A stretch of DNA of 64,000 nt. It comes from Neoarius graeffei. Its lineage: Eukaryota; Chordata; Actinopteri; Siluriformes; Ariidae. Made by a program: the position numbers and the translations under genes. Shown here piece after piece: positions 2,980 through 56,286 of the stretch; position 1 is the stretch's first letter; each line of letters starts with the position of its first letter. The notes beneath the pieces are model-generated. The model had not been told where the DNA came from, made no database searches, and saw only the letters and a program-made list of their open reading frames with translations. The stretch covers positions 89,501,888 to 89,565,887 of the forward strand of contig NC_083571.1 of the NCBI RefSeq assembly GCF_027579695.1, written 5' to 3'.

Positions 2980-3034
2980 AAATACTTTTGTGATCGTGCA
3001 GTTTTGAAATTGTTAAAATAAACATATTCACCTA

Positions 3035-4640: not shown

Positions 4641-5939
4641 TACATGTTCATCTTGTTGGGCTTGTGATTTTGACTCGTTTCCAAAACGTATGAAAAGTCA
4701 CCATATTAGGAAATTTTTTTTTTTGGCAAATAAGATGTATCGCAATGTTTGACCTCGGTATTTGAAAAATCCTGGTTACGGCCCTGTACCCGGACCCTTC
4801 TTCTATGCATCCATGATGCTGTAATTGATGCAGCATGTGGTTTGGCATTGTCATGTTGGAAAATGCAAGGTCTTCCCTGAAAGAGACGTCGTCTGGATGG
4901 GAGCATATGTTGCTCTAGAACCTGGATATACCTTTCAGCATTGATGGTGTCTTTCCAGATGTGTAAGCTGCCCATGCCACACGCACTAATGCAACCCCAT
5001 ACCATCAGAGATGCAGGCTTCTGAACTGAGCGCTGATAACAACTTGGGTCGTCCTTCTCCTCTTTAGTCTGAATGACACGGCGTCCCTGATTTCCATAAA
5101 GAACTTCAAATTTTGATTCATCTGACCACAGAACAGTTTTCCACTTTGCCACAGTCCATTTTAAATGAGCCTTGGCCCAGAGAAGACGTCTGCGCTTCTG
5201 GATCATGTTTAGATATGGCTTCCCCTTTGAACTATCGAGTTTTAGCTGGCAACGGCGGATAGCACGGTGAATTGTGTTCACAGATAATGTTCTCTGGAAA
5301 TATTCCTGAGGCCCATTTTGTGATTTCCAATACAGAAGCATGCCTGTATGTGATGCAGTGCCGTCTAAGGGCCTGAAGATCACGGGTACCCAGTATGGTT
5401 TTCCGGCCTTGACCCTTACGCACAGAGATTCTTCCAGATTCTCTGAATCTTTTGATAATATTATGCACTGTAAATTATATATTCAAACTCTTTGCAATTT
5501 TACACTGTCGAACTCCTTTCTGATTTTGCTCCACTATTTGTCGGCGCAGAATTAGGGGGATTCGTGATCCTCTTCCCATCTTTACTTCCGAGAGCCGCTG
5601 CCATTCCAAGATGCTCTTTTTATACCCATTCATGTTAATGACCTATTGCCAATTGACCTAATGAGTTGCCATTTGGTCCTCCAGCTGTTCCTTTTTTGTA
5701 CCTTTAACTTTTCCAGCCTCTTATTGCCCCTGTCCCAACTTTTTTGAGATGCTGCTGTCATGAAATTTCAAATGAGCCAATATTTGGCATGAAATTTCAA
5801 AATGTCTCACTTTTGACATTTGATATGTTGTCTATGTTCTATTGTGAATACAATATCAGTTTTTGAGATTTGTAAATTATTGCATTCCGTTTTTATTTAC
5901 AGTTTGTACTTTGTCCCAACTTTTTTGCAATCGGGGTTG

Positions 5940-6639
5940 TATAAGAATCCCAATCACTATCAGAATTCTCTCCAAAACATGATTCCATATTGAGACTGGT
6001 CTAATCACTGCTGCGCACATGTGACATCACACACCCCTTTGGGATCTTCCGGTTCAGTCTCAGCAGATTCCATGAAAATCGGCTAATCTTATTGATTTTC
6101 TGTCAACTTATGGCCTTTTGGATGAGCTATGGTCAACATAATGATTGTTGCTTTGTACAAGGAAAAAAGGGGGGTTCAGAGGTATTACATACACTTTAAA
6201 GGGTATATCCACAAGTGCTTTCTGGTGCTGCTACAATTTTGCAGTTGCTTTTGAAATATTTCAAGCTAGCATGGATGAAACCAGAATCAAAATCAACATA
6301 GTATAAATACAGAAGCACATTTAGATGTAGCTAATCAGCAGGGTCGGACTGCAACAGAATACAGGAAACGCTGTTATGTAGTCTGAATATCACTGAAGTG
6401 TCTGTATTCATTATTCTATTTGTTTTCTATTAGAATTCCTCTCAACTAATGTAAAACTAATAAAATAAATAAATTCCACACCCATTCTTTCTCAACTGCT
6501 TTGTGATATGATGCGAAGTGATATGATGATACAACCATGACAGATTTTGACACATTCAGTTCATGGAATTACAAACAACTTTTTTTCCAGTTATCATACA
6601 TATTATATGATCACCCACTACCTCGATGTAAAGTCAAAT
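5940..6639. other. Unassigned spacer
   Basis: AT-rich sequence without an open frame of note, RNA gene or recognised repeat. Confidence 0.5.
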
Positions 6640-18829: not shown

Positions 18830-19864
18830 TTACAGGTTGGTTTTCACAACCTTCTTCTCTTTGACAACAATCTTCCGTGAGCTGGGAAGTCCATGTACAG
18901 TGCTTGTGTTCAATCCAATAGTCCCATTCTGGGACATGGCAGTGGATGTTACTGCCCCCTGCAGAGATCCATGAGTGATTCCTGAAGTCCCTCCCTGCCT
19001 CCCCACTACATACTGCATACTTTGAGAGCCTCCGGCCACAGGAACACTTCTTTGGAGGGATCCATGAATTGCAGACCCTCCTTGCCCTTCCACAAACACT
19101 ATGCCTTGAGATCCAGAGAGGCTCCCTCTCGGCAGTGTTCCTTGGAGGATCTGGCCACCTTGTGCACCTGTATCAACAAGCAAAAGCTGTGAACCTGACA
19201 AATGAGCTGACTGGAGCAAGCCTGCGTTCAGTGCCGTGGTAGATCCTCCATGTGTTTCCAACAACAACACTCTGTCTCCTCCACCAATTGTGCCTTGTGC
19301 TGGCACAGCACCCTGGACCAGGACTCTTTCGTTCACTGGAGCTCCATTCAGCACATACATCCCCTGGGTCATTCCCACGGTGGGCCTCTCAGCCAACAGC
19401 ACAGTGTTAGAAACCTGAGGCTCCACCATGTAGTACATTGGCTGCTGCTGCACCATCAGGGTCTGGGTGGGCACATCGATCAGAGTCTGGGCTGGCTGCA
19501 CGTCAGACACTACATGGGTGTTTTTAACTACCACATTCTCCTCCCTGTGCATGGTAGAGGGTGCTGCAACTTCGGTGGCCATGTTGACAGTGTTGGCAAT
19601 ATTGGTGTGCGTGGAAACTGATTCAGAGTGATCCATGATGGGTTTTGGAGGAGGAAGGGAGGTAGCAGCCATTGTGAACTCTGTGCCTCTACCACATATC
19701 TCAGCTAGAGTAGTGAACTTTGGCCCCAAGTCATTAAGGAACTCCAGATCATTGTCAGCTCCTAGGATGCTGCAGCAACCGATAGAGCCAGCAGGTGATC
19801 CCTGACCTTCTAAACTAAATGGCAGTAAATTCTCTTCGGCTGTGGTGCACAAGTCCTGAGTTTT
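18830..19864 (-). CDS. dsg2l: Desmoglein last exon: plakoglobin site and tail
   Basis: 344 codons and the stop. The acceptor is [27 protein letters not shown] and [12 protein letters not shown] form the conserved intracellular cadherin-like sequence that binds plakoglobin. The remaining 280 residues are low in charge and rich in Gly, Ser, Thr, Gln and Val, with repeated short patterns ([33 protein letters not shown]). They end in a basic [14 protein letters not shown], unlike the human tail. Confidence 0.93.
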   Translation of the reverse strand, partial: KTQDLCTTAEENLLPFSLEGQGSPAGSIGCCSILGADNDLEFLNDLGPKFTTLAEICGRGTEFTMAATSLPPPKPIMDHSESVSTHTNIANTVNMATEVAAPSTMHREENVVVKNTHVVSDVQPAQTLIDVPTQTLMVQQQPMYYMVEPQVSNTVLLAERPTVGMTQGMYVLNGAPVNERVLVQGAVPAQGTIGGGDRVLLLETHGGSTTALNAGLLQSAHLSGSQLLLVDTGAQGGQILQGTLPRGSLSGSQGIVFVEGQGGSAIHGSLQRSVPVAGGSQSMQYVVGRQGGTSGITHGSLQGAVTSTAMSQNGTIGLNTSTVHGLPSSRKIVVKEKKVVKTNL

Positions 19865-22800
19865 CTGCAAGACACAAATAGGCTTGTTAAAAGCACTAAA
19901 ATTCATATTGCACCTTTCATGAACTAACGCATACAAATAGAGTAGCCTGAAGACACTGACACAGTAGAGTTATGACTGATGAGCTGAAGCATAAACAGTA
20001 GGATTCCAAGGTTTAACTCTTTGCCCAACTTGTTTTTATTATGTTATTTATCAAAATGCAATTTTGCTCGTCAATACTAATTATTTCAGAGGATATTATT
20101 TAAAAGCATTAATAAAACTAAAAATTCTATTTTACTGCTATTCTCAAAGCTACCACATGCTTCCACAGAGGCCTGTCAATCCAAGTAGTACTATCCAATA
20201 TCAAATTCATCCTTTTCAACCTGTTGCTCATGCTGTGTCACAGGAGAGCATGAAGCTCTATCTGCCCTCTTCCACATACATAAGCTCACAGATGCCCATG
20301 ATTCACCGGGGTCAATCTGACAGGGGAGTGAGAGTATGCCATCCCTCATACCTAGAAAGCACATTTAGCTTTGCTTTCCAGGTTCCTAACCACAGATCAG
20401 GATTCTGACTTGCAAGCAATTTTCTTTTATGCCATTAGGGAGCCACAAAAAACTTTTTTCAAGTATATATAGATAGTGGAATAATAGTTTTATTCTATCC
20501 ACAATCCCTGGCTTTTGAGAAACAGAGCATTTTTATTTTTTGCAAATTCGAGAAATTAAAATTTATACAAAACATCCAGCAAAATAACTTCTGCTTAGAA
20601 TGTAACAAACTGGCAAAATGACCGTAGCAATTTGTGAAAAATGCTATAATTCTTGAAAAAAAAAAAAAATTCTTACCATGAAATACTTTCATTCCATATT
20701 TTGTTGCCTTTTTGTATTTTTGGGGTTTTTGTTTTCGAGCAGAGTTTTTATTTCATCCTCAGTTGATTCAGCAACACGCTCTGCCATTTTGTTTTTCTCT
20801 ACTCACAGTATATGTGCGGATAGCAGTGAATGTGGACAGACAGAATAAATATATACAGTGCTCAGTGTAAACGAGTACACCCCCTTTGAAAAGTAACATT
20901 TTAAACAATATCTCAATGAACACAAACAATTTCCAAAATGTTGACAAGACAAAGTTTAATAACGGGAAAAAGTAAGGTTAATAATATAAATTAGATTACA
21001 CATTTTTCAGTTTTACTCAAATTAGGGTGGTGCAAAAATGAGTACACCCTACAACAAAAACTACTACATCTAGTACTTTGTATGGCCTCCATGATTTTTA
21101 ATGACAGCACCAAGTCTTCTAGGCATGGAATGAACAAGTTGGCGACATTTTGCAACATCAATTTTTTTCCGTTCTTCAACAATGACCTCTTTTAGTGACT
21201 GGATGCTGGATGGAGAGTGATGCTCAACTTGTCTCTTCAGAATTCCCCAAAGAAAATTTCTTTCCACCACAAAGGTGAAGGCTACAAGATGATCAGCAAA
21301 GCTTTACTTATCGGTCAGAATACTGTAGCAAAAGTGGTACAAAAATTTAAGAAAAAGATGGAACTGCAACCATCTCACAGAGACGTCCAGGTCGTCCACG
21401 GAAGTTAACACCTCGGCAGGAGCGTCTTCTGATGAGAAGGGTTGAAGAAAATCGGCATGCAAGTTCACTGCAGTTATCTAAAGAAGTAGAAAGCCAAACT
21501 GGAGTGACTATTTCCCGTGACACAATACGGCGTACACTGCAGAGGAATGGCAAGCATGGATGCCATCCACGAAAGAAGCCTCTCCTAAAGCCCAGGCACA
21601 AAAAAAGCCCGCCTAGAGTTTGCCAGGGCCCATGCTGACAAAGATGAAGACTACTGGGACTCTATACTCTGGAGTGATGAGACCAAGATAAATGTTTTTG
21701 GAACTGATGGCTTCAAAACTGTATGGCGTCGCAAAGGTGAGGAATACAAAGAAAAAAAAAAATGCATGGTGCCTACAGTGAAACATTGTGGTGGCAGTGT
21801 CCTTATGTGGGGCTGCATGAGTGCTGCTGGTGTCGGGGAGCTGCATTTCATTGATGGCATCATGAATTCACAGATGTATTGCTCTATACTGAAAGAAAAG
21901 ATACCACCATCACTCCGTGCCCTTGGTCGTCGTGCACTTTTCCAACGTGACTAAACACACATCTAAGGCCACTGTTGGATTTCTGAAGAACAGGGTGAAA
22001 GTGATTCAGTGGCCAAGTATGTATCCTGATCTGAACCCAATCGAACACCTATGGGGAATTCTGAAGACACAAGTTGATCACTCTCCATCCAGCATCCAGT
22101 CACTAAAAGAGGTCATTGTTGAAGAATGGAAAAAAAAGATTGATATTGCAAAATGTCACTAAACTTGTTCATTCCATGCCTAGAAGACTTGGTGCGGTCA
22201 TTAAAAATCATGGAGGCCATACAAAGTACTAGATGTAGTAGTTTTTGTTGTGGGGTGTACTCATTTTTGCACCACCCTAATTTGAGTAAAACTGAAAAAT
22301 GTGTAATCCAAGTTATATTATTAACCTTACTTTTTCCTGTTACAAGTTAAACAGATGTTATATTAAACTTTGTCTTGTCAACATTTTGGAAATTGTTTGT
22401 GCTCATTGAGATATTGTTTAAAATGTTATTTTTCAAAGGGGGTGTACTCGTTTACGCTGAGCACTGTATATACCATACACGGTGGTGTAGTGATTAGCAC
22501 GGTCACCTCACAGCAAGAAGGTGAAATAAGCCCAGCGGCCAATGAGGGTCTTTCTGTGTGGAGTTTGCATGCTCTCCCCATGTCCGCGTGGGTTTCCTCC
22601 GGGTGCTCCGGTTTCCCCCACAGTCCAAAGGCATGCAGGTTAGGCTAATTGGTGGCTCTAAATTGACCGTAGGTGTGAATGGTTGTCTGTGTCTATGTGT
22701 CAGCCCTGTGATGACCTGGCAACTTGTCCAGGGTGTACCCCGCTTCTCGACCATAGTCAGTTGGGATGGGCTCCAGCTTGCCTGTGACCCTGTAGGACAG

Positions 22801-22871
22801 GATAAGTGGCTACAGATAATGGATGGACGGATGGATGTGTGAGTGTATATTATTTTATATACAATATAAAG

Positions 22872-22902
<31 letters not shown>

Positions 22903-25900
22903 TATACTGACACCTTTCAACAAAATAGGCCAAAGATTAAAACACAATGAGTGACACCCATACTACTAAATGTGTGATATTATTGCCACCTTTGTAGAAT
23001 ATTTAAAGCAATCCCACCAAAAAAAAAAAAAAAAAACCCACGCACCCCTGATTGTAATTTGCCTTTTTATTTAAAAAAATAATAATAATAATTATTATCT
23101 GAGGACATTATGCAGTTTTCTAAAGAAATGGGCTGGTGGGTTATTCCAGGCTTCTTGGAGAACTTGCTACAGAAGAAAGGAAGATGATGAATGTAGCAGC
23201 CATTTTAAGAGACTGGTGGTGTTTAATATAGGTTTGCTTTTTCTTTTAATTTTTTAAAGTTTGGCCTGTATAGCATGTCCCCCTGTATGATGTTGTAATG
23301 CACTCAAATGAACATTTGCAAAAAAATAATTAAATTAAAAAAAAAATAAAAATTTTCATTGTTTCTTATAGCTGAATCGAGTCAAAGGCATACAAAGGCA
23401 TTGCTGGCAGCCACCATACAACTCCTGCTCAGATATTCACACCTATGGGCAATTTGTAGGAGCCAGTTAAAATGCATGCCATCTGAAATTGATCTTCTTT
23501 AGTGTTCTGCCTGATGGCAGGTCTGCTCTGACCTGTGCCGTAAGTGGCCAAGAGCAATCGAAGAAGAGAAGAGGTAAATGTCAGTGAAGTTGCATTCTTG
23601 CTTGTGTAATTGTTTTGGTGGTTCTAATAAAATAATATTATGCTCACAGTTTAAGCCTGTTTGAAGTAAAGTTTTATTCCTGCACATGTAGTGTAACCAC
23701 CAACCACATCAGGCTTTTAGTTTTTGGAAGGAAACCGTATTCAGTTGGCTGCAACCTCACTGCTAGATGCCACAAAATCCTTCATAGTGCACCTTTAAAT
23801 TTGTTGTATATATGGTAACACTTTCTAGAGATGTGCAAATTTTTGGTATTATGCTTTTCATGACACAATTACAAGTCTTTATTGTTCTCTTAATGACTAT
23901 ACTCTAATGTTCTCAATTAGTCTGGACCACTGTGTGTTATCCAGTCCAGAGTAGAAAATGATTTGTCAAACAATTTCCAAAATTACAAAAAAAAGCAGGC
24001 AAATTCATGTTGTACTCTACTCCTGTTGCCCTAGGGTTAGGGCCCATACCTTTTGTGATGTCAAGTTCCATTCTCTTATTTTATGTACTTTCTAATATAT
24101 GTCTCCACTTACATGTGAGTAGTAATGGTCGAAGAAGTCTTCTGAAAGGCCCAGTCCACTGTCGTATGTGGAAAACTCATCCCTCATCATCCCAAGATGT
24201 CCGCTCATTCCCTGATCCATAGACATCATTTCCATCTGACTACTGGCTTGACCTCCGTTGATGATGTAACCAGCACCTCCAAGGGCAGCAGCTCCCTTGG
24301 CTGCACCGTTGAAGGCCCCAAAGCCACCTGGCATCATTCCAGGACCATCAGTTTCACTCAGGAAGAAGGGCACATCCTGTCAAATTTAGAATTAAATTGA
24401 TTTAAATTGGAGAAGTTACATGAATGTTTTGTATTACAGATGGATTTTAGCCACTGCATTAATCATAACTTTATGAAACTAGGATTAATGGTAAAAATTT
24501 ATTTTGATATCCAATTTAAATGTTCTACAAACTGTCAACAAACCATCTGTAGATTGTCAATATATTGTCAGGTGACTGTCATAAAACAGCTCCTCAACTA
24601 ATACAAAATAATATCCACAGTGTTAGGACTAGGACTGTTTTGGCCTCTAGAGGCCGCTGTTATTTCCTTTTCATGTCGTGTTTATTTTGGCCTCTAGAGG
24701 CCGCCACTGTTCCTGTGTTTTGTGTTTGTGTTAATTGCCTAATTATCTTCACCTGTGTCCTTAATTAGTTTGTCTATTTATACCCCTGAGTTCAGTCCTC
24801 TTGTCACGGAGTCTTTGTGCTGTTATGTTTATCTCCAGTTTCCTTTGTACTGTGTTTTTTGATCTTCTTAGCTTTTGAATTTTTGCACTTTGCTTTTCTT
24901 TTGGATTATACTCTTTGGTTTTTTTTTGTCTTTTGTTTTGCCCTGTATATAGTGTATATAGTTTAAATAAACCTTTTGATTCTTTTTCTACTTCCGCCTC
25001 ACGCCTCTGCATTTGAGTCATCCCCCTGGTGGCCTAGTGGGGGTTTGCTGGATTATCACACCAACGAACCAGGTTCGAATCCCAGCAAAACCCTAACAGA
25101 AAGACTCCGTCATGACCGACTCAGCAGAGGCTGCTTCAACTGTCTACCCGGCCAACCTTCAGGGAATTATGGCAGCTTTGACACGCTTCGGAGCGACCAT
25201 GGACGCTCATGGACGTACGCTCACCAGCCAACGTGAGGCCCTCGCTCGCCACGAGGAACTGCTTCAGCAAATTGGGAAAACCCTGGCACAGCTGACATCT
25301 CTGCCTGCATCTCCTGCTCCTGATCCAGTTCCTGCTCCTGATCCAGCTCCCACTCCTGCTCCAGTGCCTCCTGCAATGCTGCCTTCTTCACCTCGCGAAC
25401 CCAGCCTTCCTGCACCACAGAGGTATGACGGCAAGCACAGTGAGTGCCGAGAGTTCCTTACCCAGTGTCAACTCACCTTTGAGCTTCAGCCTACCACCTA
25501 CACTACGGATCGCCGCAAGATTGCCTTTGTGATCACCTTATTAGCTGGTAAGGCGCGAGCCTGGGCTACTGCTATCTGGCAAAGACAGGGACCTGAGTGC
25601 TTTGATTTCCAGCTGTTTTCTGAAGAGATGCTTCGGGTCTTCGATCAGGCAGACATCAGTACCGACGCAGCCCGAAAGCTCATGTCCATCCGGCAAGGAG
25701 GAAGCGTCGCAGATTATGCCATCTCGTTCCGAACACTCGCAGCAGTAAGTGGATGGAACGAGACTGCCCTGGTGTCAGCCTTCCACCATGGTCTGTCTGA
25801 CCCCATCAAGGACGGTCTGGCCTCTATTGGATGCCCAAGTGACCTCGAAACCCTCATCTCACATGCTATTCGTCTGGACAACAGGATGAGAGAACGCCAC

Positions 25901-28900
25901 CAAGCCTTGAGCCCCCCCAGCCTCCCTACCTCTACCTGGAGACCGTCTACCTCCTTCAGTGACTGTCCAGAACCCATGCAAGTGGGTCGTACTCGCCTCT
26001 CCGCATCTGAGAGGGAGCGCAGAAGGAGGGACAAGTGCTGCATCTACTGTGGCAAACCTGGTCACTTCCGAGCATCATGTCCCGAACTCTTGGGAAAAGG
26101 ACCGCCCCGTCCAGCCGAGGGAGGGTTGTGACGGGGCCTACCCTCTCTCCCGGACTCCCTGGCCAAGGAATCTACATCCCGGTCTCCATCTCCTGGGGTG
26201 AGTCTGTCCACTCTTGTCAAGCTTTGATAGACTCAGGGGCGGCTGGGAACTTTATGGATATTCACTTCGCCCAAAGCATCAATATTCCGACTGCACCTCT
26301 TGAAGTCCCACTGTCTGTGTCTGCCCTCGATGGCCAAGCGTTAGGTGATGGAAGAGTCACCCAAGTTACTTCTCCAGTTTTCCTCCAGTCTCAAGGTCAC
26401 AAGGAAGAAATATCCCTGCACCTGATTCCTTCACCTGAGTTCCCAGTTATTCTAGGCCTTCCTTGGCTTACTCGCCACAACCCTCGCATAGACTGGGTAA
26501 CAAGCCAGGTTGTGGAATGGGGCCCTGCATGCCATGCCTCTTGTCTGCTCTCTAGCTCTCCTGTGTCTCCTGCCGAGCCCCCTGATCTCACCGAGTTATC
26601 TCAAGTTCCCACAGAGTACTGGGATCTCAAGGAGGTATTCAGCAAGAGCAGGGCCGCCGTTCTTCCTCCGCACCGGGCCTACGACTGTGCCATCGACTTG
26701 CTCCCTGGGACTACCCCTCCTCGTGGCAGACTGTTTTCACTCTCTCAGCCAGAACGCAAGGCCATGGAGGAATACCTCAAAGATGCCCTGGTCTCTGGGT
26801 TTATTCGACCCTCCACTTCACCTGCTGGAGCCGGCTTCTTCTTTGTCGGCAAAAAGGATGGGGGGCTCCGACCATGTATTGATTACAGGGGCCTGAATAA
26901 GATCACTGTGCGCAACCGATATCCCCTTCCGCTGATGTCCACAGCTTTCGACCTGCTCCAAGGCGCCACCGTCTTCACCAAGTTGGACCTACGGAACGCA
27001 TACCACCTCATCCGTATCCGACAGGGAGACGAGTGGAAGACTGCCTTTAACACCCCGTCTGGGCACTACGAATACCAGGTGATGCCCTTCGGACTCACCA
27101 ACGCACCAGCTGTTTTTCAGGCCCTAATCAACGACGTCTTAAGGGACATGATTAACCTATACGTTTTTGTCTACCTCGACGACATCCTTATCTTTTCCAA
27201 GACCGTGCAGGAGCACCGCCACCATGTCCGCCAGGTTCTCCAGAGGCTGCTACAGAACAATCTGTTCGCCAAGGCCCAGAAATGCGAATTTCATGTTCCC
27301 GAGGTCTCCTTTCTGGGATTTATTGTACGGACAGGCCAACTCCAAATGGACCCTGCCAAGACCCTGGCCGTCCGGGACTGGCCTACTCCCAAGTCCGTTA
27401 AGGAGGTTCAGCGGTTCTTAGGATTCGCTAACTTCTACCGCAAGTTCATCAGGAACTTCAGTTCTGTGGCAGCACCCATGTCAGACCTCACCAAAGGGAC
27501 AGGTGGATCTTATGGCTGGTCTCCTCAGGCAGAAAAGGCGTTCAAAGACCTCAAGGACCGCTTCTGCATGGCACCCATTCTGGTTCTCCCGGACACCTCC
27601 CAACCATTCATCGTGGAGGTGGACGCCTCGGACAGTGGTGTCGGCGCGGTGCTCTCTCAACGTTCGGAAGGAAAGCTGCACCCCTGCGCTTACTTCTCCC
27701 ACCGCCTGAGTCCTGCTGAGTCCCGGTACGATGTGGGGGATCGAGAACTGCTAGCGGTCAAACTGGCCCTTGAGGAGTGGAGGCACTGGCTGGAGGGAGC
27801 ACAACATCCATTCCTGGTTTGGACTGACCACAAGAACCTGGAGTACCTCCAGCAAGCCAAGAGACTGAACCCTCGACAGGCTAGGTGGGCCCTGTTTTTC
27901 AGTCGGTTTGACTTCACCCTCTCATACCGCCCCGGCTCCAAGAACACCAAACCTGACGCACTGTCCAGACTGTTCTCTGCCACTAACAGGGAGAATGAAG
28001 TCGGGCCTATTATCCCTGTGTCCCGGATTGTGGCCCCTGTCCGCTGGGGTATTGAGGAGGCTGTCCGACGAGCCCAACACCAGGACCCCGGTCCTGGGAC
28101 GGGGCCACCAGGCCTCTTGTACGTCCCACATCAAGCCCGGGCCAAGGTTCTCCAGTGGGGTCACTCTTCCCCTCTCACCGCCCACCCGGGAGCTCGGAGG
28201 ACCCTGGACTTCCTGAAAAGACGCTTCTGGTGGCCTAACATGGAGAAGGAAGTAAGGTCATTTGTCCTGTCCTGTGAGGTTTGCACCAGAACCAAGAACC
28301 CACGACAGCGTCCCCAGGGTCTCCTGCATCCTCTGACCATTCCCCGGCGTCCCTGGTCCCACGTGGCAGTCGACTTTATCACGGGTCTCCCTGAGTCACA
28401 AGGTAACACGGTCATTTTGGTCTTAGTTGACAGATTCTCCAAGGCCTGCCGCTTCATACCACTGTGCAAACTCCCCTCTGCTCTTGAAACTGCGAAACTT
28501 TTGTTTAATCATGTCTTCCGAGTCTTTGGTCTTCCACAGGACATCGTCTCAGACCGAGGGCCCCAGTTCTCCTCCCGAGTGTGGCACGGGTTCTGCAAGG
28601 TCATCGGAGCCACTGCCAGCCTCTCCTCTGGGTTTCACCCACAGTCCAATGGTCAGACGGAGAGGCTCAACCAGGACCTGGAAACCACCCTGCGAGGCCT
28701 GGCTATGGATAACCCGACATCGTGGAGCACCTGGCTGCCATGGGCGGAGTACGCCCACAACACCCTGCAGTCATCGGCCACCAAGCTGTCGCCATTCCAG
28801 TGCCAATTCGGGTTCCAGCCACCTCTGTTCCCGGACCAGGAGGAGGACGCGGGGGTGCCCTCGGTCAACCAATATGTGAGACGGTGTCGCAAGACCTGGA

Positions 28901-31900
28901 GCAAGGTCAGGAAGACCCTCATACAGACCTCCAGAACCAACCAGACTCAGGCCAACCGCCATAGAAGACCTGCACACGCTTTCCGCCCTGGGCAGCGTGT
29001 TTGGCTGTCCACTAAGGACCTTCCACTGCGGGTGGAGAACCGCAAGCTTGCTCCTCGCTACATTGGTCCCTTCAAGGTGGTGCGCAGGGTGAACCCTGTC
29101 TCCTACCGGCTCCAGTTGCCCCGGACTCTGAGGATCAACCCCACTTTCCATGTTTCCCTGTTACGGCCCGTACTGACGTCTACGTATGCCCCTGCCCCTA
29201 GGAACCCCCCACCCCCCCGCATCTTCCAGGGGCAGACTGTGTTCACTGTGAATCGCCTGCTTGACTCCCGCCGGGTCCGCGGCGGGTTGCAATATCTGGT
29301 GGACTGGGAGGGCTATGGTCCTGAGGAGCGCTGCTGGGTTCCTGCTCGGGATGTCCTTGATAAAGAACTATGTCGGGACTTCCATTCGGCCCATCCGGAT
29401 CGCCCTGGGAACGTCAGGAGACGCTCCTAGAGGGGGGGGTCCTGTTAGGACTAGGACTGTTTTGGCCTCTAGAGGCCGCTGTTATTTCCTTTTCATGTCG
29501 TGTTTATTTTGGCCTCTAGAGGCCGCCACTGTTCCTGTGTTTTGTGTTTGTGTTAATTGCCTAATTATCTTCACCTGTGTCCTTAATTAGTTTGTCTATT
29601 TATACCCCTGAGTTCAGTCCTCTTGTCACGGAGTCTTTGTGCTGTTATGTTTATCTCCAGTTTCCTTTGTACTGTGTTTTTTGATCTTCTTAGCTTTTGA
29701 ATTTTTGCACTTTGCTTTTCTTTTGGATTATACTCTTTGGTTTTTTTTTGTCTTTTGTTTTGCCCTGTATATAGTGTATATAGTTTAAATAAACCTTTTG
29801 ATTCTTTTTCTACTTCCGCCTCACGCCTCTGCATTTGAGTCATCCCCCTGGTGGCCTAGTGGGGGTTTGCTGGATTATCACACCAACGAACCAGGTTCGA
29901 ATCCCAGCAAAACCCTAACACACAGTTTAAGGATTTGAATGTTTCAGAGATTACCAATAAATCCTTTTGCTTTCACTTTTTTGGACAGTCCGGTTTATAG
30001 CTTATGATGTTTAGTAGATCATTTATAGATGATCAACTCGTTCTATCACAGTTTCAAATTCAGATAATGTGAACTCTACTGTTTCACTTAATAGCATATT
30101 GTAACCAAACATAATTTGGCTCTTTGTTGAGAATCAGTTTCACGTTGAGAATCAGCTGGTTCATGGCAGACTACACATTCACTGGCCACTTTATTAGGAA
30201 CACCTGTACACCTGGTCATTTATACGGTTATCCAATCAACCAACCATGTGGCAGCAACATAATACATAAAAATCAAGCAAATACAGGTCAAGAGCTTCAG
30301 TTAATGTTTGCAAGAACACGAGAATGGAGAAAAATGTGATTTCTGAGACTTTACCTGTGGCAAGGTTGTTGGTGCCAAATGGACTGATTTGAGTATTTCA
30401 GAAACGATCTCCTGGGATTTTTACACACAGTAGTCTCTACAGATTACACAGAATGGTGTGGAAAAAATAAAAGACATCCTGTGTGAAGAGGGTCTGCAGG
30501 CTGAAACACTTTGTTGATGAGAGAGATAAGAGGAGAATGACCAGACTGGTCTGAGCTGACAGGAAGTCTATAATAACAACTCAAACAATCACTCTTTACA
30601 TCTGCAGTGAGCAGAAAAGCATCTCAGAAATGCACAAGACCTCAAACCCTGAGGTGAATGAGCTACAACAGCAGAAGACCACATTAGGTTCCAGTCCTGT
30701 CAGACAAGAACAAGAATCTGAGGCTATCATGAGCACAGACTCACCAAAACTGGACAGATGCGGTCTTCTGCTGTTGTAGCCCATCCACCTCAAGGTTTGA
30801 TGTTTTGTGCATGCCGAAATGCTGTTCTGGTCACCACAGTTGTAAAGAGTGATTGTGTTAGCTACTATATTCTTTCTGGCAGATCAAACCAGTCTGGCTA
30901 GTTTCCTCTGACCCCTCTCATCACCAAGGCATTTCCACCCACAGAACTGTTACTCACTCAATGTTTTTCCCCCCCACAGCAATCTGTGTAAACTATGAAA
31001 TACTTTTCTGAAATACTCAAACCAGTCCATCTGATATCAATATCCATGTAATGATCACAGAGATCACAGTTCTTCATTCATGAATGTGCAGGTGTTCCTA
31101 ATAAAGTGAAAGGTGAGTGTTGTGGATGGTTTGTCGACTATCTACATTGGACTATATGGGGGGAAAAAAAAAGTGTTACTGGAATAACCAAATAAACCTG
31201 AAGAACAAGAGGTTGAGATATCTCTCTTACCCGGTCTTCTCCCTGACCTTCTGTATGGTAGGAAATCAGATGCTCTTTAGTGTCAAAAGGCATCTCAGTG
31301 AAGGGTCCGCTCATGGCAGCCGCTCCACACTGACAGAACAGCAGTAGGAGTGGAATAACTGTGAAAACAATTCAGATATTGAGTGTTGATGCAGGCTTCT
31401 TTTACAGTCTTTAATTTTTTGCAGCACTACAAGAAGCCCAAACATCTACTGGGATGCATCTAAAAACAGTCTAGTCAACACAGATGTAACAGACAAGAAA
31501 GTAAGTACACTCACGTAATAGCATGAGGAGCCCCAGGATAAGCAAACCAATTCCGGCACTGCCAAGTTCCGAGCTCTTTCCTTGAACCGCAGTGGGGCCA
31601 CATGTTGCTGATTTATCACATGTGCAGACAGTCACCTTTAGCACCTGCTTATCTGGACACGACATCCCCTGCTGATCGCGAACTTCCAGAGTCACCTGAA
31701 GAAGGCCTGGCCAAGGTGCATCTTGGGGCTTCAACATGGCTGTCGTATCTACAATAATATGATTAAGTCAACATCACTGAATTATATCATGTAAGGAGCA
31801 AATAATATTGGAGACCATCCACATTCATTTGCCACAACAGATCCATTTACTTTTGCAAATATATATGACAATATTAGACAAATACCCACATGCTAACATG

Positions 31901-34900
31901 CAATAACCTACTTCTATTATTAATTTTACTGAAATGCAAGTCTCTCTATAAAAAAAAAAATCACCACCATCATCATCTTAGGTCTTTACTGTCATTTTTA
32001 TGAGGAAATATGGCCCTTTGCCCTGAATGTCATGGCAGATTACTAAAAATTCGTACCATTTAAGTGCTCCACACTCCATTTTCCATCTGTCCCTTCAGGC
32101 AGGACAGTGAATGTGAAGGGACCTGCATTTGGAAAATCATCTTTGTCCTCTGCAGTGACATACAAAACTTCCTGAGTGGTGCACATAGTCTGTTTGGGAT
32201 CAGGTAGAGTAGGGCAGTGGTCATTAAAGTCCTCCACCTGGATGGCGACAGTGCCTGTCGCTGTCTTAGAGGGCATGTCTATAATGACAGATGAAAAAGT
32301 ATTACATATTGAATTGCACATTTTGATGCACTTTTGTAGTATAGGTGGGTTTGTTTCTACAGAATATATTGAAGAACAGATTAAAGATATCAGAAAGACA
32401 AAATGAAAAAAAGGGAGATAATTTACTATTATTAATGCGTGATCTATCTTTTATGGCTCTGCCTGTAGGAAAAGTGTAGCCATAGTCCCTAGAATAAACT
32501 TTTATTCATATTTGCAAAAGCAATGCTTGCATGTTCTCCTGGTGATACAACTGCCCTGCCCGGCCTTCCGGAAATCTACAAATGCTATGTGTAGAGGCCA
32601 AATGTGCTAATAGTTGATAAAACTTAATTTCTTCCTCTATGAATAGAGGAAGAAACACAATATTATGCATCTAATTATTATTACTTCCTGTTTGTCAAAT
32701 ACATAAATTGCACTGACTATATGACACTTTAATTGCCTGCCATCAGCTAATGTAATGCACTTTAACAGCGTATGCAGGAATTATAGACACCCCCTGTGAA
32801 ACATAAATAATGGAGAGGCTACATAAAATACTGGAAAGGGTAAATATACAGTCTATACACTCATACAGTGGGGTCCAAAACCTGAGACCACATTGAAAAT
32901 CTGGGAATTTTTTTTTTAATCTAAACCAGAAATAAACCTAATGTTAGAATTCTGAAAGTTCTAAAACAAGAAAGAAAAAGTACAACATCTTTCAACACGA
33001 TTCAATACTCAAGATTCTGTAAGATTTCTAGGTCCCCGTTTAAATATTAATAACTTTGTGATATTGACCATGTTAACAGCTTTGCACAAAAGGTCAGATT
33101 TTCCATGAGACTCATCTCTTCTAGTGAAGTATATTCAGATGACACTCCGATGGATTTGATCTAAAATGGATCATAAGGTTTTGCAAAGTTGTGAAGTTCA
33201 TGCCAGCTCAAGTGCACATCGTCATTAAAGCAAAAAGGGGACACCCCAAATACTAAGCAACTCTGAAATTCATGTAAATATTTCAAAGATTCTACTTTTT
33301 ACTCAAATTGTTGCTGATATCATCATTTGTGATGAAAAACCTTCATGTTAATTTTAAAAAGAATGCAAAAAGAAGAATTTTCACTGGTGCTCTCAGACTT
33401 TTGGACCTCACTGTCTATGATCTTCACCTTGTAATACTGGCTAATATTCAGTCTGTCTTCCTAAAATAAGTAAAATATAAAACAGTTTATGGTGCACAGT
33501 TTGAAAATACACGATAATAGTTTAACAGAAAATTATCTGTTGAAAGAATCAAAAGGGTAAAAGTCAGTTGTTAATCTCAAAATAATTTAACTGAGTTATG
33601 AACCTTGACTAATACAGAGGATTTCTGCCATGTAAGTCCCATTGACCAGGTGTGGAGATTCTCGATCTGGGAATTTGTTCAGTTTGATTTCACCAGTTTT
33701 CTCATCAATGGATAGCCAGTTGTCTCGGTCAGAGCCTTTAACATATCTGAGAGAGGAAAACCAGAAGTATGGTTCACATACAGAGACAGGTGACTGACAA
33801 AGGGAAAACATGAATAAATTTGTGCAGAAATATAATGAGTACAGATATTCCCACACAGATAGTGCCATTAATTAAGACTAAAATGCTCCATGTTATGTAC
33901 AGTATATGCATGTCAGCATGGCTACAAAAAAAAAAAAAAAAATTCTGCTAATCATACATGTTGTGAAAAAACAATAACAGAGACTCACTTGACTCGCTGA
34001 GCAGGTAATCCTGTATCTGGATCGATAGCGGTGTATGTTGTGAGGACCTTTGTTATATCAACCATCTTTCCATTTTCAGAAACTGGAACTGCCTTCACTT
34101 TGGGAATGAAGGTTGGGCCTTCAGGCTGATTCTTTACCTTAACATTCATAGTGTAGACTTTACTACCACCACCACCACCACCCGACATTCCTGCAGATCC
34201 TCCGCCTCCTCCACCACCACCACCACCCAACATTCCTGTAGCTCCTCCGCTGCCGCCTCCTCCTCCGGACCCATCTGCTGTATAGTATGGAGCCGCATTG
34301 TTCACAGTGATGCCCAGATTCATGAGTTTTACTTGCTCATAATCTACACCCTGAAAACAAAAGCACATTGGTGACTTCTTCTGCACAGTACAAGCACTCA
34401 CACTGAAATGAACATCATTCTTCATATCACAATGTCACACTAAGGCAATAGGATGTTACAAGTGGCATGTTTGTCCTAATTTATAGCAATATAAGCCTGG
34501 TGATCAAGACAAGAAAATTGGGGAAATAAAACATTGACAACCTTGACAAGCATCAGGACTCCCTCGTTGGTCTTTGGATCAGTGATGATATTAAAATGCC
34601 CACCCCCATTGCCTGACACAATGGTGTACACAGCCTGCCAGTTTTCAGTGTTTGGCAAGTCCAGATCAGTGGCTTTCAATCTCATCACCTCCACATTCTC
34701 TGTGTTCTCCTCAACACTGACTTCAAACTATATACAGAAGGAGAAACAAATAGGGATAACTGTCTCACTGGCCCATCAAAAGTGATTATATTTCTGTGCC
34801 TTGTATATTACATATTTGAGACAACCACTGTCAAATTTCATAACACTGGAACGAGTAGGAACACAGGGATTAAATAGGTGCCGCCTTACCGAGTCCTGCT

Positions 34901-51195: not shown

Positions 51196-51217
51196 ACGTG
51201 TTTGTTTATATATATAT

Positions 51218-51580
51218 CATCTCATTATCTCTAGCCGCTTTATCCTTCTACAGGGTTGCAGGCAAGCTGGAGGCTATCCCAGCTGACTATGGACGAAAGG
51301 CAGGGTACACCCTGGACAAGTCGCCAGGTCATCACAGGGCTGACACATAGACACAGACAACCATTCACACTCACACCTACAGTCAATTTAGAGTCACCAG
51401 TTAACCTAACCTGCATGTCTTTGGACTGTGGGGGAAACCGGAGCACCCGGAGGAAACCCACGCGGACACGGGGAGAACATGCAAACTCCGTACAGAAAGG
51501 CCTTCGTCAGCCACGGGGCTCGAACCCGGACCTTCTTGCTGTGAGGTGACAGCGCTAACCACTACACCACCGTGCTGCCC
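51218..51580 (-). mobile_element. SINE b, hybrid of a and c
   Basis: The tail side matches SINE c (GCTGGAGGCTATCCCAGC, GACGAAAGGC) and the head side matches SINE a (CTCCGTACAGAAAGGCC). This is what an unequal crossover between a and c would leave. It is absent from unit 2. Confidence 0.85.
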
Positions 51581-51601
51581 ACGTGTTTGTTTATATATAT
51601 A

Positions 51602-51937
51602 TCATCTCATTATCTCTAGCCGCTTTATCCTTCTACAGGGTTGCAGGCAAGCTGGAGGCTATCCCAGCTGACTACGGACGAAAGGCGGGGTACACCCTGG
51701 ACAAGTCGCCAGGTCATCACAGGGCTGACACATAGACACAGACAACCATTCACACCTACGGTCAATTTAGAGTCACCAGTCTTTGGACTGTGGGGGAAAC
51801 CGGAGGAAACCCACACGGACATGGGGAGAACATGCAAATTCTGGACAGAAAGGCCCTCGCCGGCCACAGGGCTCGAACCTGGACCTTCTTGCTGTGAGGT
51901 GACATTAGGCCATGAGGATTATACCACCGTGCCGCCC
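51602..51937 (-). mobile_element. SINE c of the duplicated cluster
   Basis: A shortened family member lacking part of the middle body. Its head region reads GACATTAGGCCATGAGGATT in place of the usual A-box side text. Duplicate at 53197. Confidence 0.85.
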
Positions 51938-51950
51938 ACGTGTTTGTTTT

Positions 51951-52025
51951 TTATATATATATATATATATACACACACATATATATATATTATATATAGT
52001 GTGTGTGTATGTGTGTGTGTGTACA

Positions 52026-52096
<71 letters not shown>
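51951..52096. repeat. TA/TG microsatellite
   Basis: Long TA runs separated by ACACACATA and GTGTGTATGTG pieces. It yields artificial Tyr-Ile repeat frames on both strands. Confidence 0.95.
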
Positions 52097-52100
<4 letters not shown>

Positions 52101-52803
52101 TTTTAAGCCAACTTCTGAATGAGTGCTGTGTTCATGCTCACCTGAAATAAAATTCATGAAAAATAATGAAACAAATGGTCCAAGTGTATTTTTTAATTAA
52201 TGTTAATCACAATTATGATCTGACAGACACCATTAGTGTCTCATAGATGGCAATACAGAAGGTCTGTACAGAAGGCAGTAAATCATTTTAATTATACTTT
52301 GAAAGTGTGAGTCACAGAAGTAAACTGTGGTGGTAAAAGAGAGCAACTGGACTTGCTTAAAGATTCTTGAAGATTTTTCACCTCTCATCTGAAAGCCTTC
52401 TTCAGTTCTGTCTGACTAATGGGAAGTATCAGGTATTTATCCTCTCATGGATGAAAAACAATCCATGACCGTAATAAATGACAAATACCAGATGATTCAC
52501 TGTTTATCATAAACTGGTAGGGTACCTGTCTGTGATCACACGTTCCTCCTCATTCCCTCTGACACACACACGCACATAGATCTACAGGCATGTTGCTACA
52601 CCCAAAGCAAAATATTGTACAAAGTATGTGTGTTTATCACATGTCAACATCTTATTTGTTATATACAGGACATCCAAAAGGTCAGGGACCAAGAAAAATT
52701 TGTTGAGCAAATATGTTTATACGAATGTGTTGAGCAAAATCCACAAAAAGTGAGACAGCAGCTGAGAACATATGTAGAGTGTAAGGGTGAACATGTTGAG
52801 AAT

Positions 52804-53173
52804 CTCATCTCATCTCATTATCTCTAGCCGCTTTATCCTTCTACAGGGTCGCAGGCAAGCTGGAGCCTATCCCAGCTGACTACGGGCGAAAGGCGGGGTA
52901 CACCCTGGACAAGTTGCCAGGTCATCACAGGGCTGACACATAGACACAGACAACCATTCACACTCACACCTACAGTCAATTTAGAGTCACCAGTTAACCT
53001 AACCTGCATGTCTTTGGACTGTGGGGGAAACCGGAGCACCCGGAGGAAACCCACGCGGACACGGGGAGAACATGCAAACTCCGTACAGAAAGGCCTTCGT
53101 CAGCCACGGGGCTCGAACCCGGACCTTCTTGCTGTGAGGTGACAGCGCTAACCACTACACCACCGTGCTGCCC
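52804..53173 (-). mobile_element. SINE a' (duplicate of SINE a)
   Basis: Same diagnostic text as the SINE at 50828. Its start is the duplication junction. Confidence 0.9.
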
Positions 53174-53196
53174 ACGTGTTTGTTTATATATATATC

Positions 53197-53530
53197 ATCT
53201 CATTATCTCTAGCCGCTTTATCCTTCTACAGGGTTGCAGGCAAGCTGGAGGCTATCCCAGCTGACTACGGACGAAAGGCGGGGTACACCCTGGACAAGTC
53301 GCCAGGTCATCACAGGGCTGACACATAGACACAGACAACCATTCACACCTACGGTCAATTTAGAGTCACCAGTCTTTGGACTGTGGGGGAAACCGGAGGA
53401 AACCCACACGGACATGGGGAGAACATGCAAATTCCGGACAGAAAGGCCCTCGCCGGCCACAGGGCTCGAACCTGGACCTTCTTGCTGTGAGGTGACATTA
53501 GGCCATGAGGATTATACCACCGTGCCGCCC
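53197..53530 (-). mobile_element. SINE c' (duplicate of SINE c)
   Basis: Same shortened structure as the SINE at 51602, with only scattered differences. Confidence 0.9.
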
Positions 53531-53537
53531 ACGTGTT

Positions 53538-53542
<5 letters not shown>

Positions 53543-53594
<52 letters not shown>

Positions 53595-53638
53595 TATATA
53601 TATATTATATATAGTGTGTGTATGTGTGTGTGTGTACA

Positions 53639-53692
<54 letters not shown>
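53543..53692. repeat. TA/TG microsatellite, duplicate
   Basis: Counterpart of 51951-52096 with different run lengths. Confidence 0.95.
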
Positions 53693-53695
<3 letters not shown>

Positions 53696-54262
53696 TTTTA
53701 AGCCAACTTCTGAATGAGTGCTGTGTTCATGCTCACCTGAAATAAAATTCATGAAAAATAATGAAACAAATGGTCCAAGTGTATTTTTTAATTAATGTTA
53801 ATCACAATTATGATCTGACAGACACCATTAGTGTCTCATAGATGGCAATACAGAAGGTCTGTACAGAAGGCAGTAAATCATTTTAATTATACTTTGAAAG
53901 TGTGAGTCACAGAAGTAAACTGTGGTGGTAAAAGAGAGCAACTGGACTTGCTTAAAGATTCTTGAAGATTTTTCACCTCTCATCTGAAAGCCTTCTTCAG
54001 TTCTGTCTGACTAATGGGAAGTATCAGGTATTTATCCTCTCATGGATGAAAAACAATCCATGACCTTAATAAATGACAAATACCAGATGATTCACTGTTT
54101 ATCATAAACTGGTAGGGTACCTGTCTGTGATCACACATGTTCCTCCTCATTCCCTCTGACACACACACGCACATAGATCTACAGGCATGTTGCTACACCC
54201 AAAGCAAAATATTGTACAAAGTATGTGTGTTTATCACATGTCAACATCTTATTTGTTATATA

Positions 54263-54474
54263 CAGGACATCCAAAAGGTCAGGGACCAAGAAAAATTTGT
54301 TGAGCAAATATGTTTATACGAATGTGTTGAGCAAAATCCACAAAAAGTGAGACAGCAGCTGAGAACATATGTAGAGTGTAAGGGTGAACATGTTGAGAAT
54401 ATTGTAAACAATAAATACAAACTTAAGTATATGTGCTTTTACTCTCAGTGCTTCCTGACTTTTTGGACACCCTT
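54263..54474 (+). mobile_element. Deleted mariner-like mini-element (candidate)
   Basis: Ends form an imperfect inverted repeat, AGGACATCCAAAAGGTCAGG and CCTGACTTTTTGGACACCCT. Between them an open stretch encodes VRQQLRTYVECKGEHVENIV, which resembles the C-terminal end of mariner transposases (basic residues, Cys, GxHxE). About 0.21 kb, so most of the element is gone. The left part of its duplicate is at 52667-52803. Confidence 0.45.
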
Positions 54475-54750
54475 TCTGGACCATTATAATTCGACATTTT
54501 AGCTTTAAACTGATATAATCACATTTTACATCAGTATCACTTGATTTATGTACCTTAATAATACACAACATAATCAACCTAAATGCAGCACAGTAAAAAT
54601 AATAAAATAAGGCTTGTTGAGGTTGCATTAAATACTTCAGTTAATGCATAAAATGTGTTTCTAACATTTTAAATGACATGAGGCTTTTTTTCTTTTCTTT
54701 TTTTTTTTGAGAAATCTAAATTTTAACAGCCCAACTAAATTTTAACAGCC
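54475..54750. other. Unassigned spacer
   Basis: AT-rich; a short direct repeat CTAAATTTTAACAGCC occurs twice just before the U1 copy. Nothing else recognised. Confidence 0.5.
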
Positions 54751-54914
54751 GTACTGACCTGGCAGGGGCAATACCATGATCAAGAAGGTGGTTTGTCCAA
54801 AGTGAGGCCCAGCCGTTGCACTCAGGCTATGCTGACTTTTGCAAATTCCTCAGATGCAGGAATCTCAACTGCATAATTTCTGATAGTGGGGGACTGCGTT
54901 CGTGTTCTCCCCTT
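54751..54914 (+). pseudogene. U1 snRNA pseudogene, full length
   Basis: It aligns end to end with vertebrate U1 over 164 positions, apparently without a gap: ACCTGGCAGGGG, ATACCATGATCA, GAAGGTGGTTT, TTGCACTC, ACTGCATAATTT, TAGTGGGGGACTGCGTTC. The 5'-splice-site-pairing segment reads ACTGACCTG instead of ACTTACCTG. The Sm site reads AATTTCTGA instead of AATTTGTGG, so it should not form a working snRNP. No snRNA promoter element was seen upstream. It is fused downstream to LINE/SINE-type tail sequence. Confidence 0.85.
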
Positions 54915-55104
54915 TCACATAAATCATAGCTGTCCACTGCTCTGGGTATGTGTGTGCTCATTGCTCACTTATGTGTCTGCATGTGTGTGTTCACTGCTTC
55001 AGATGGGTTAAATGCAGAGGATGAATTTCACTGTGCTTGAGTGTGCATGTGACAAAGTCTTCTTCTTCTTCTTCTTCTTCTTCTTCCTCCCTTCTTCTTC
55101 TTCT
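54915..55104 (+). repeat. LINE/SINE-type 3' tail attached to the U1 copy
   Basis: CACTGCTTCAGATGGGTTAA, TGCAGAGGATGAATTTCACT and GTGTGCATGTGACAAAG lead into a (TTC)n run at 55061-55104. This tail is frequent at the 3' end of teleost retroelements. With the U1 head it makes one roughly 350-bp unit with a retroposon layout. Confidence 0.7.
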
Positions 55105-56286
55105 TAAGTGCAGAATTTGAAACCACTTATCTCACCATTTTTGCTCAACAGAATCAGTTTATCTGCAGACCCTCATTCTAACCGCTTTTATTTCAGGCTG
55201 ATCAGGAGAGGTGGGAAACTAAAACGCACACTACACTTGAAATAGTTTTGACTTTGTGCCCAATCCACGCATACCACACAATGAGGAGGAGACAGAGGGA
55301 TAGAAAAGGGCCCTAATCAAGTCGGTGACGTGAGCCACTACAGTTACCTGAGCTCAGAAATGGGGCTGTGTGAGAGAATGTGTAAACAGAGAGTGTGCTA
55401 AGGTCTTTGCTCTAGAGTTACCAGCCAGCACACATCAGTGCTTGAACAGCAGAAAACCAGAGTGTAAAACCATATTATTAAACAACTCATTTACATCACT
55501 ATTAAATAATTTGTGCCTTATATGGCAACTATATGTGGTTTATAAAGAACAAAACTCCTTAAAAGCTCTTTGTTATTTAGTAATAAATATATCAAACTTT
55601 TGTATCACTAAAAACAACATAATAACAGTGTGAATATACCATGTTGTGCAATACTTCCTCTCTCACTCTCACTGTGTCATATACGCACATGAATCAACGT
55701 AGTAATAGCCATGGGCCATTCTGTGCTTGGGTGTAACTAGGTGTGTCTGAAACCTATCTACACACACCCAAACCTTCATGTCAGTGTCATTTGGTGTCCC
55801 TGATTCGTTTAATGCATTATAATGTGCTTAACAAAATAATTTTCGTGTGATAATAAAGTACACATCATACAATAGGTTTAATAAGTAATCGTCAGTATTA
55901 TGTTCTAGTATTTAGTAGGTAAATGCAAAGGAGAAATAAGAAAACAGAAAATTCATCCATATAGCAAATTGTGGATAGTAATTTAATTCATCCTGATGAG
56001 CAGGATATAACTTTTTAATTTTTATGACGTTTTAATTTTGTGTTTGTCAATGCTACTTTAGAGGTCCTTATCCTTTATACACTTTAATCAGGCAGGGAAG
56101 AGCTCTGGACAGGGGTGTGTTACTCACAGCGACATAACAAATTCCACAGCTTTGCTGTCAGGCCCCATTCCATCACACCAACTGAACATGAAACTGTATC
56201 AAATTCCCACCATATTTTGACACCCTCTGCTCTGGCAAACAGGGATATGTGATACTTATATTCATAAAATGTTTGTTTTAGCAAGC
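55105..56286. other. Unassigned intergenic sequence
   Basis: No gene or repeat recognised. AT content rises to the right. Confidence 0.45.

Follow-up and report, generated by a model that had tools for sequence, protein, structure and literature searches.

Within the 64-kb stretch of DNA analyzed here (the window, which lies on contig C3 of a fish genome assembly of 2.34 Gb in 38 contigs), plus-strand positions 54751 to 54914 carry a full-length copy of the U1 snRNA, of an older variant-U1 type overlaid with later substitutions. Using Infernal, we aligned positions 1-166 of the Rfam U1 model (RF00003) to this segment with 127.6 bits and an E value of 6.4e-32, and nothing else in the 64-kb window reached the gathering score of an Rfam family. 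Behind U1, on the same strand, follow the eight bases TCACATAA, a 3' extension corresponding to pre-U1 flank, and two junction bases, AT, that we assign to neither side (54915 to 54924); the 3' part of an apparently tRNA-like SINE, entered at about SINE position 254 (54925 to 55057, as placed by tail search and junction alignment); and the (TTC)n repeat that closes the SINE tail, of period 3 in Tandem Repeats Finder, with which the insert ends (55058 to 55105). Directly upstream, at 54715 to 54750 on the plus strand, two copies of the 16-base string CTAAATTTTAACAGCC, read by eye, stand in close tandem, and U1 begins immediately after the second. Since the string does not recur behind the tail, the pair cannot be taken for a duplicated target site.

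The first-pass annotation of the window had reported a complete U1 in this position running into a LINE/SINE tail with a (TTC)n end, and both observations were borne out, the tail being the 3' third of a SINE of about 400 bases followed by (TTC)n. Its claim that U1 could be followed without gaps holds when the head is compared with the closest U1 type in the genome, the older variant, from which it differs gap-free at 11 of 164 positions (10 of the 11 differences being transitions; 10 differences in 163 aligned positions in a second comparison), but not against the Rfam consensus, where a few small gaps are needed. Likewise, U1 is joined to a retroelement tail as described, but the break falls near 54924 rather than 54914, with about eight bases of U1-gene 3' flank in between. 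Finally, alterations in the Sm and splice-site-pairing segments had been taken to mean that this is no working U1; that verdict stands, although the Sm change is partly inherited from variant U1 genes, whose majority reading is AATTTCTGG, compared to AATTTGTGG in the two canonical genes fetched. The window U1 copy is not a working gene. Its 5' splice-site-pairing segment reads GTACTGACCTG, its upstream sequence is by eye unlike either U1 gene cluster of the genome, and neither a U1 promoter region nor a 3' box was seen in its flanks, again by eye. BLAST searches with both parts of the element gave only short, chance-level matches elsewhere within the window. Very probably, the feature is a dead chimeric retropseudogene in which U1 has been joined to the 3' part of a SINE.

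The window also holds several other mobile elements and repeats. An LTR retrotransposon, by reading of the Ty3/Gypsy type, occupies 24621-29920; its 478-base terminal repeats are 100% identical and it encloses a 1139-amino-acid stop-to-stop frame (26011-29430), which together indicate a recent insertion. Two elements that read as Tc1-like transposons, in inverted orientation and 96% identical, lie at 3033-4193 and 4786-5941, the first with a 361-amino-acid transposase-like frame. A 1.6-kb tandem duplication of 97% identity at 51214-54400 contains copies of a repeat of about 385 bases together with TA repeats, and reading frames of desmoglein/cadherin-like appearance, judged by eye, lie on the minus strand at 18830-34434.

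To characterize the tail, we searched the genome with it alone, scored the best 40 of 1317 candidates and fetched 30, one of which was the window itself; the other 29 fetched loci contained no U1 match (0/29). Identity of the window tail to the other listed matches was 89-95%, the best other match reaching 95%, and against the majority sequence of the 29 fetched copies, themselves those closest to the window, the tail shows 4 differences in 132 positions plus three gap columns. One ordinary U1-less SINE, L035, begins at about the same base as the SINE part in the window. We take the tail to be of the L2 type; no LINE carrying it was seen at the eight tail loci whose upstream frames were inspected, and a 32-base stretch of it found no match in the viral contigs scanned. 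SINE heads show A- and B-box-like motifs by eye (for example, TGGTGTAGTGG and GGTTCGAACCC), and ARAGORN called a tRNA at 0 of 12 fusion loci; on the strength of the motifs, the head may be described as tRNA-like.

A search with the whole element (54751-55104, or C3:89556638-89556991 in assembly coordinates) yielded 1479 candidates, the best 40 of which were divided between 21 U1 gene-array copies and 19 dispersed copies. The array-type copies, 20 of them on C1 at 18-31 Mb and one gene-like copy on C18, share upstream sequence and a GTCAAA-type 3' box; the upstream flanks of the dispersed copies are unrelated. Among these best 40, 17 of the 19 dispersed copies, window included, carry a same-strand SINE within 40 bases behind U1. 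The exceptions are L008, which shows no SINE sequence there, and L024, in which U1 is followed perhaps by another SINE family. Further queries added to this set: an exact 18-base pattern, present at 10 places, gave one new fusion (L067); U1 plus SINE head gave nine and L114 (best 40 of 2005); an older-type query gave L111-L113, L115 and L116 (best 40 of 3721); and a canonical-U1 query gave L117-L119 (best 40 of 1825). The gapped pattern CACATAAYTN{0,14}GGGYGGCAYGGTGG matched 101 places, among them four fusions already found and one new fusion, L140. We did not accept these 101 places as fusions, since U1 was present in one (L140) of the 18 that were fetched and missing from 17; in at least eight of the latter, the SINE lay beside an unrelated repeat. 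Such a repeat, ending in approximately TTTAC CACATAATTCCATATA, directly precedes the SINE in L125, L128, L129, L131-L134 and L139, and repeat and SINE possibly form a composite mobile element.

The resulting tally of U1-SINE fusions (17 + 1 + 9 + 1 + 5 + 1 + 3 = 37) is a lower bound, with at least 33 variant U1 heads and at least four canonical ones (L115, L117, L118 and L119). The tally leaves out L024, L008 and L120 (the latter two having no evident tail), L122 and the array copies, which are gene-like, and two U1 copies that run into LINE-like tails, L061 (C7:33481511) and L121 (C22:61520799). We take these two tails to be Rex1-like LINE 3' ends. The queries that followed the whole-element search consisted of U1 and SINE head, which biases the set toward joins at the SINE 5' end.

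The genome contains two clusters of U1 genes that bear on the origin of the fused heads. Canonical genes are located at C1:71.6-73.8 Mb (L123 and L124 were fetched), and a second, variant cluster is widely spaced over about 12 Mb at C1:18.3-30.8 Mb (L006, L011, L016, L022, L025-L028, L059, L069-L080 and L104). Between the variant consensus and canonical U1 there are 19 differences over 163 positions. Mapping the Rfam base pairs through the window alignment (n = 46), we found pairing kept in 45 pairs of the variant, 43 of the canonical U1 and 42 of the window copy, and five pairs are changed on both sides between canonical and variant U1 with pairing preserved. Given the 45 of 46 pairs kept and the five compensated changes, the variant cluster is probably functional, or was so recently; that it represents a germline U1 is our guess. 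Behind 18 of the 21 array-type copies we also observed an additional, incomplete U1 (beginning at about position 66-84 and ending at 172, with 80-85% identity), lying some 470 bases behind the array U1 in, for example, L011, L025 and L104, and present also at L017 on C18.

The U1 heads of the fusions include young variants, older variants (distinguished at positions 22, 92, 117 and 133), some intermediates and canonical U1. Across 33 measured fusions (L115 being the one canonical fusion included), heads diverge from their own type by 1.2% to 9.2%, so fusion continued over a long time; several heads are of low divergence, at 1.2-3%. In 32 of the 37 fusions, U1 is present from position 1-9 onward; in L111, L113, L118, L119 and L140 it starts further in. 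At the other end, the exact string TCACATAA follows U1 in 19 of 33 variant-U1 fusions, window included, and the remainder mostly show close forms. Because the same string is found ahead of the 3' box (GTCAAAGATGGA) of the U1 gene L059, as well as in these 19 fusions, we assigned window positions 54915-54922 to the U1 side. The extension of L114 reads TTGCGTTT, closer to the array flank; among 22 gene-like copies aligned, TCACATAATT occurs in one (L059), and the others have TTGCCTAATT or similar. Canonical genes L123 and L124 continue with ATTTCACTG after U1, and the four canonical fusions have four different spacers ahead of the SINE: ATTTT, ATTTTTT, ATAATT and ATTTTT. With 3' flank bases behind both variant and canonical heads, the RNA that became fused was probably unprocessed U1, with some T-rich additions.

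Junctions could be measured in 36 fusions (that of L116 was not measurable). The spacers between U1 and SINE were distinct in 33 of 36, a count that includes later mutation, by which spacer diversity is inflated. The spacers that do repeat join L002 with L067, which share a SINE group, L004 with L012, which belong to different groups, and L009 with L140, whose SINE starts differ; in addition, a TTCT/TTCTT style of spacer is partly common to L002, L067, L005 and L014, all of one SINE group. In 30 of the 36, the SINE starts at its position 1-3, and in three at 6 or 11; the single starts at 27, 182 and 254 belong to L119, L009 and the window, respectively. As the bases before position 27 in L119 are the first bases of the SINE, that case is an internal deletion, and the joins within the SINE are those of L009 and the window. 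In L099, an extra fragment of SINE head lies between U1 and a full SINE, which is what a double jump predicts. A tree of SINE bodies (31 fused and 19 U1-less) placed the fused copies in three groups. U1-less copies fell among the fused ones in two of these, in one of them as a single copy; as the U1-less copies fetched included none of group B and one of group A, interspersion is documented chiefly in the third group.

Counting the three SINE groups, the canonical heads, the two joins inside the SINE and the pair of LINE-like tails, we arrive at a minimum of six separate joining events. The first-pass annotation had left the choice between a U1-headed SINE family and a one-off template-switch chimera, to be distinguished by a genome search for copies with the same U1/tail junction. 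The search did reveal many U1-SINE fusions with differing flanks, but the window's own junction was found in the window copy only, among 36 measured. We rejected a single SINE family with one fixed U1/tail junction, on the diversity of spacers, of SINE groups and of U1 sources, of which there are two; for a one-off event, a chimeric mechanism is indeed probable, but 37 fusions show that the event was not unique. The observed pattern lies between the two alternatives.

U1 and SINE could be traced to a single insert at three siblings of the window copy. In paralogous copies of the host repeat, the sequences on either side of L014, L005 and L067 adjoin each other to within a few bases (3/3 tested), so that U1 and SINE entered each of these sites as one unit. 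The empty sites used for comparison were window 6769-6661 for L014, window 41846-41719 and several other loci for L005, and one Tc1-like paralogue at the L005 locus, with a 20-base gap of its own beside the site, for L067. Regular target-site duplications were seen in none of the 25 fusions with a recognizable tail end among 27 submitted to the check: the longest string shared by the flanks was 12 bases in L098 and 4-8 bases in the other 24, and in the window the longest string common to the 5' flank and the tail-end region is 5 bases. We also looked for a target duplication of the tail's own, ending at 54914/54915, the mark by which the annotation would have recognized an independent insertion, and saw none.

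We consider it highly likely that the fusions arose by recurrent template jumping of an L2-type reverse transcriptase from SINE RNA to 3'-extended pre-U1. The assignment to the L2 type is suggested by the tail type. In this model, the reverse transcriptase of a LINE (probably an L2-clade element) would begin target-primed reverse transcription on SINE RNA; in the case of the window copy, it would stop about a third of the way back, at position 254 of about 400. It would then jump to the 3' terminus of a U1 transcript not yet processed, consisting of U1 and about eight extra bases, and copy U1 to its 5' end, after which the double product would be inserted as one unit. The slip would have been repeated many times, most often, among the copies found, from the 5' end of the SINE RNA to the 3' end of pre-U1. 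We infer that the jump takes place during target-primed synthesis rather than by prior ligation of RNAs and that fusion copies propagate no further. Supporting this mechanism are the SINE behind 17 of 19 dispersed copies, the 33 of 36 distinct spacers, the double head of L099, the two U1 sources and the LINE-like tails.

The model has to be weighed against other routes to the same arrangement. Were U1 and tail two independent neighbors, a plain U1 retropseudogene next to an older or younger SINE, then the lack of target duplications delimiting one event and the existence of U1 copies with no evident SINE (L008 and L120) would be readily understood; the same-strand SINE within 40 bases of 17 of 19 dispersed U1 copies and the contiguity of all three sites tested in host-repeat paralogues make such coincidence extremely improbable. 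A true U1-headed SINE family resembling SINEU, whose master copies are reproduced as a unit and of which the window would be a member with an internal deletion, would account for dozens of dispersed copies, for the near-complete 5' side of U1 (to within nine bases) in 32 of 37 fusions, for the low divergence of several heads and for the partly shared TTCT/TTCTT spacers of one SINE group. It does not sit well with the 33 of 36 distinct spacers, the three SINE groups, the joins inside the SINE or the canonical-U1 and U1-LINE fusions. Moreover, the U1 promoter is external to the transcribed region, and by eye the copies lack the upstream sequence of U1 genes, so a composite would not be expected to produce a full-length transcript of its own. 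We judge a family of this kind improbable as a general explanation; L002 and L067, which share SINE group and spacer, suggest that some copies could descend from one composite, and for small subsets a propagating U1-headed SINE may apply.

Two further routes carry somewhat more weight, without being likely. The window copy might once have been a full-length U1-SINE fusion that lost the head and middle of its SINE to a later deletion, in keeping with the 30 of 36 measured fusions that join at the SINE 5' end (joins that the queries favor). Against this, L009 is a second internal join, and the U1-less L035 is cut off at about that base too, showing that truncation there needs no later deletion; we regard the deletion scenario as rather unlikely. 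Similarly, pre-U1 and SINE RNA may have been ligated before reverse transcription, yielding the same DNA product, as has been proposed for U6-L1 (PMC13174262). Joins at the SINE 5' end fit ligation and jumping equally well, but in our judgement the T-rich extra bases at many joins and the double head of L099 are better explained by a jumping reverse transcriptase, leaving ligation a minor possibility.

SINEU, reportedly described by Kojima in 2015, is said to comprise the U1- or U2-headed SINEs of crocodilians. The fusions resemble it in bearing U1 at the head of a SINE-like unit; unlike SINEU, they show no common junction, they involve several unrelated joins and two U1 sources, and the composite is not evidently the unit of amplification. 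SINEU has been counted as a SINE class (PMC5753468). Recurrent template jumping has precedents. Non-LTR reverse transcriptases are known to jump between templates, with a requirement for non-templated addition (PMC8857657). For L2 and RTE LINEs, U6 copies are reported only as template-switch chimeras, including U6-L2 and U6-Mon-1 in platypus and U6-L2 and U6-AnolisSINE2 in Anolis (PMC4476161). Within the human survey presented in the same paper, no U1/L1 template-switch chimera was listed among 33 U1 sequences, and U1 did appear among the inverted, twin-priming ones (PMC4476161). A recent mammalian catalogue names U1, U2, U4, U5 and U6 as partners, U6 accounting for 70.9% of 253 chimeras (PMC13174262). 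Like the snRNA-LINE/SINE chimeras of these reports (U6-L1 in mammals, U6-L2 and U6-SINE; PMC4476161, PMC13174262), ours carry a complete or near-complete snRNA at the 5' side, on the same strand, joined either to a LINE 3' part or to a SINE for which mobilization by an L2-type LINE is presumed, and arose in independent events. The published cases are mostly U6, whereas here, in a fish and in a survey that covered U1, the acceptor is U1 in at least 37 cases and is 3'-extended, and the regular target-site duplications of L1-type chimeras are missing. The MINE and WEIRD-MgSINE elements of Magnaporthe are likewise a cellular RNA repeatedly joined to truncated LINEs or SINEs, at junctions that vary and now and then include a double jump; they differ in their fungal host, in the WEIRD RNA and in having target duplications, which are not evident here (PMC2104539). 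A search of titles and abstract openings on snRNA-derived and U1-headed SINEs, fish included and subscription papers outside its range, found no U1-SINE fusion in fish, and a review of ray-finned fish mobile elements mentions snRNA and SINEU 0 times (PMC7599744). The process is thus a known one, snRNA template switching, in a recurrent variant whose distinctive features are U1 as acceptor and the apparent use of a second U1 cluster's unprocessed transcripts.

What this means for the window is modest: one dead chimeric copy. For the genome, the fusions indicate that non-LTR machinery has joined U1 to SINE RNA repeatedly, often end to end on an apparently unprocessed transcript, which bears on how SINE families gain new heads. 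It also becomes testable whether the use of U1 paralogues in fusions tracks their expression in the germline. More tentatively, the germline of this fish might sustain a standing stream of SINE-to-pre-U1 jumps, the acceptor being mostly unprocessed U1 of the second type, from the cluster spread over about 12 Mb of C1. If the variant cluster supplies the U1 of oocytes or the germline, then the fused heads would constitute a dated fossil record of active U1 genes, and such a stream of jumps, if real, would provide raw material for U1-headed SINEs such as SINEU.
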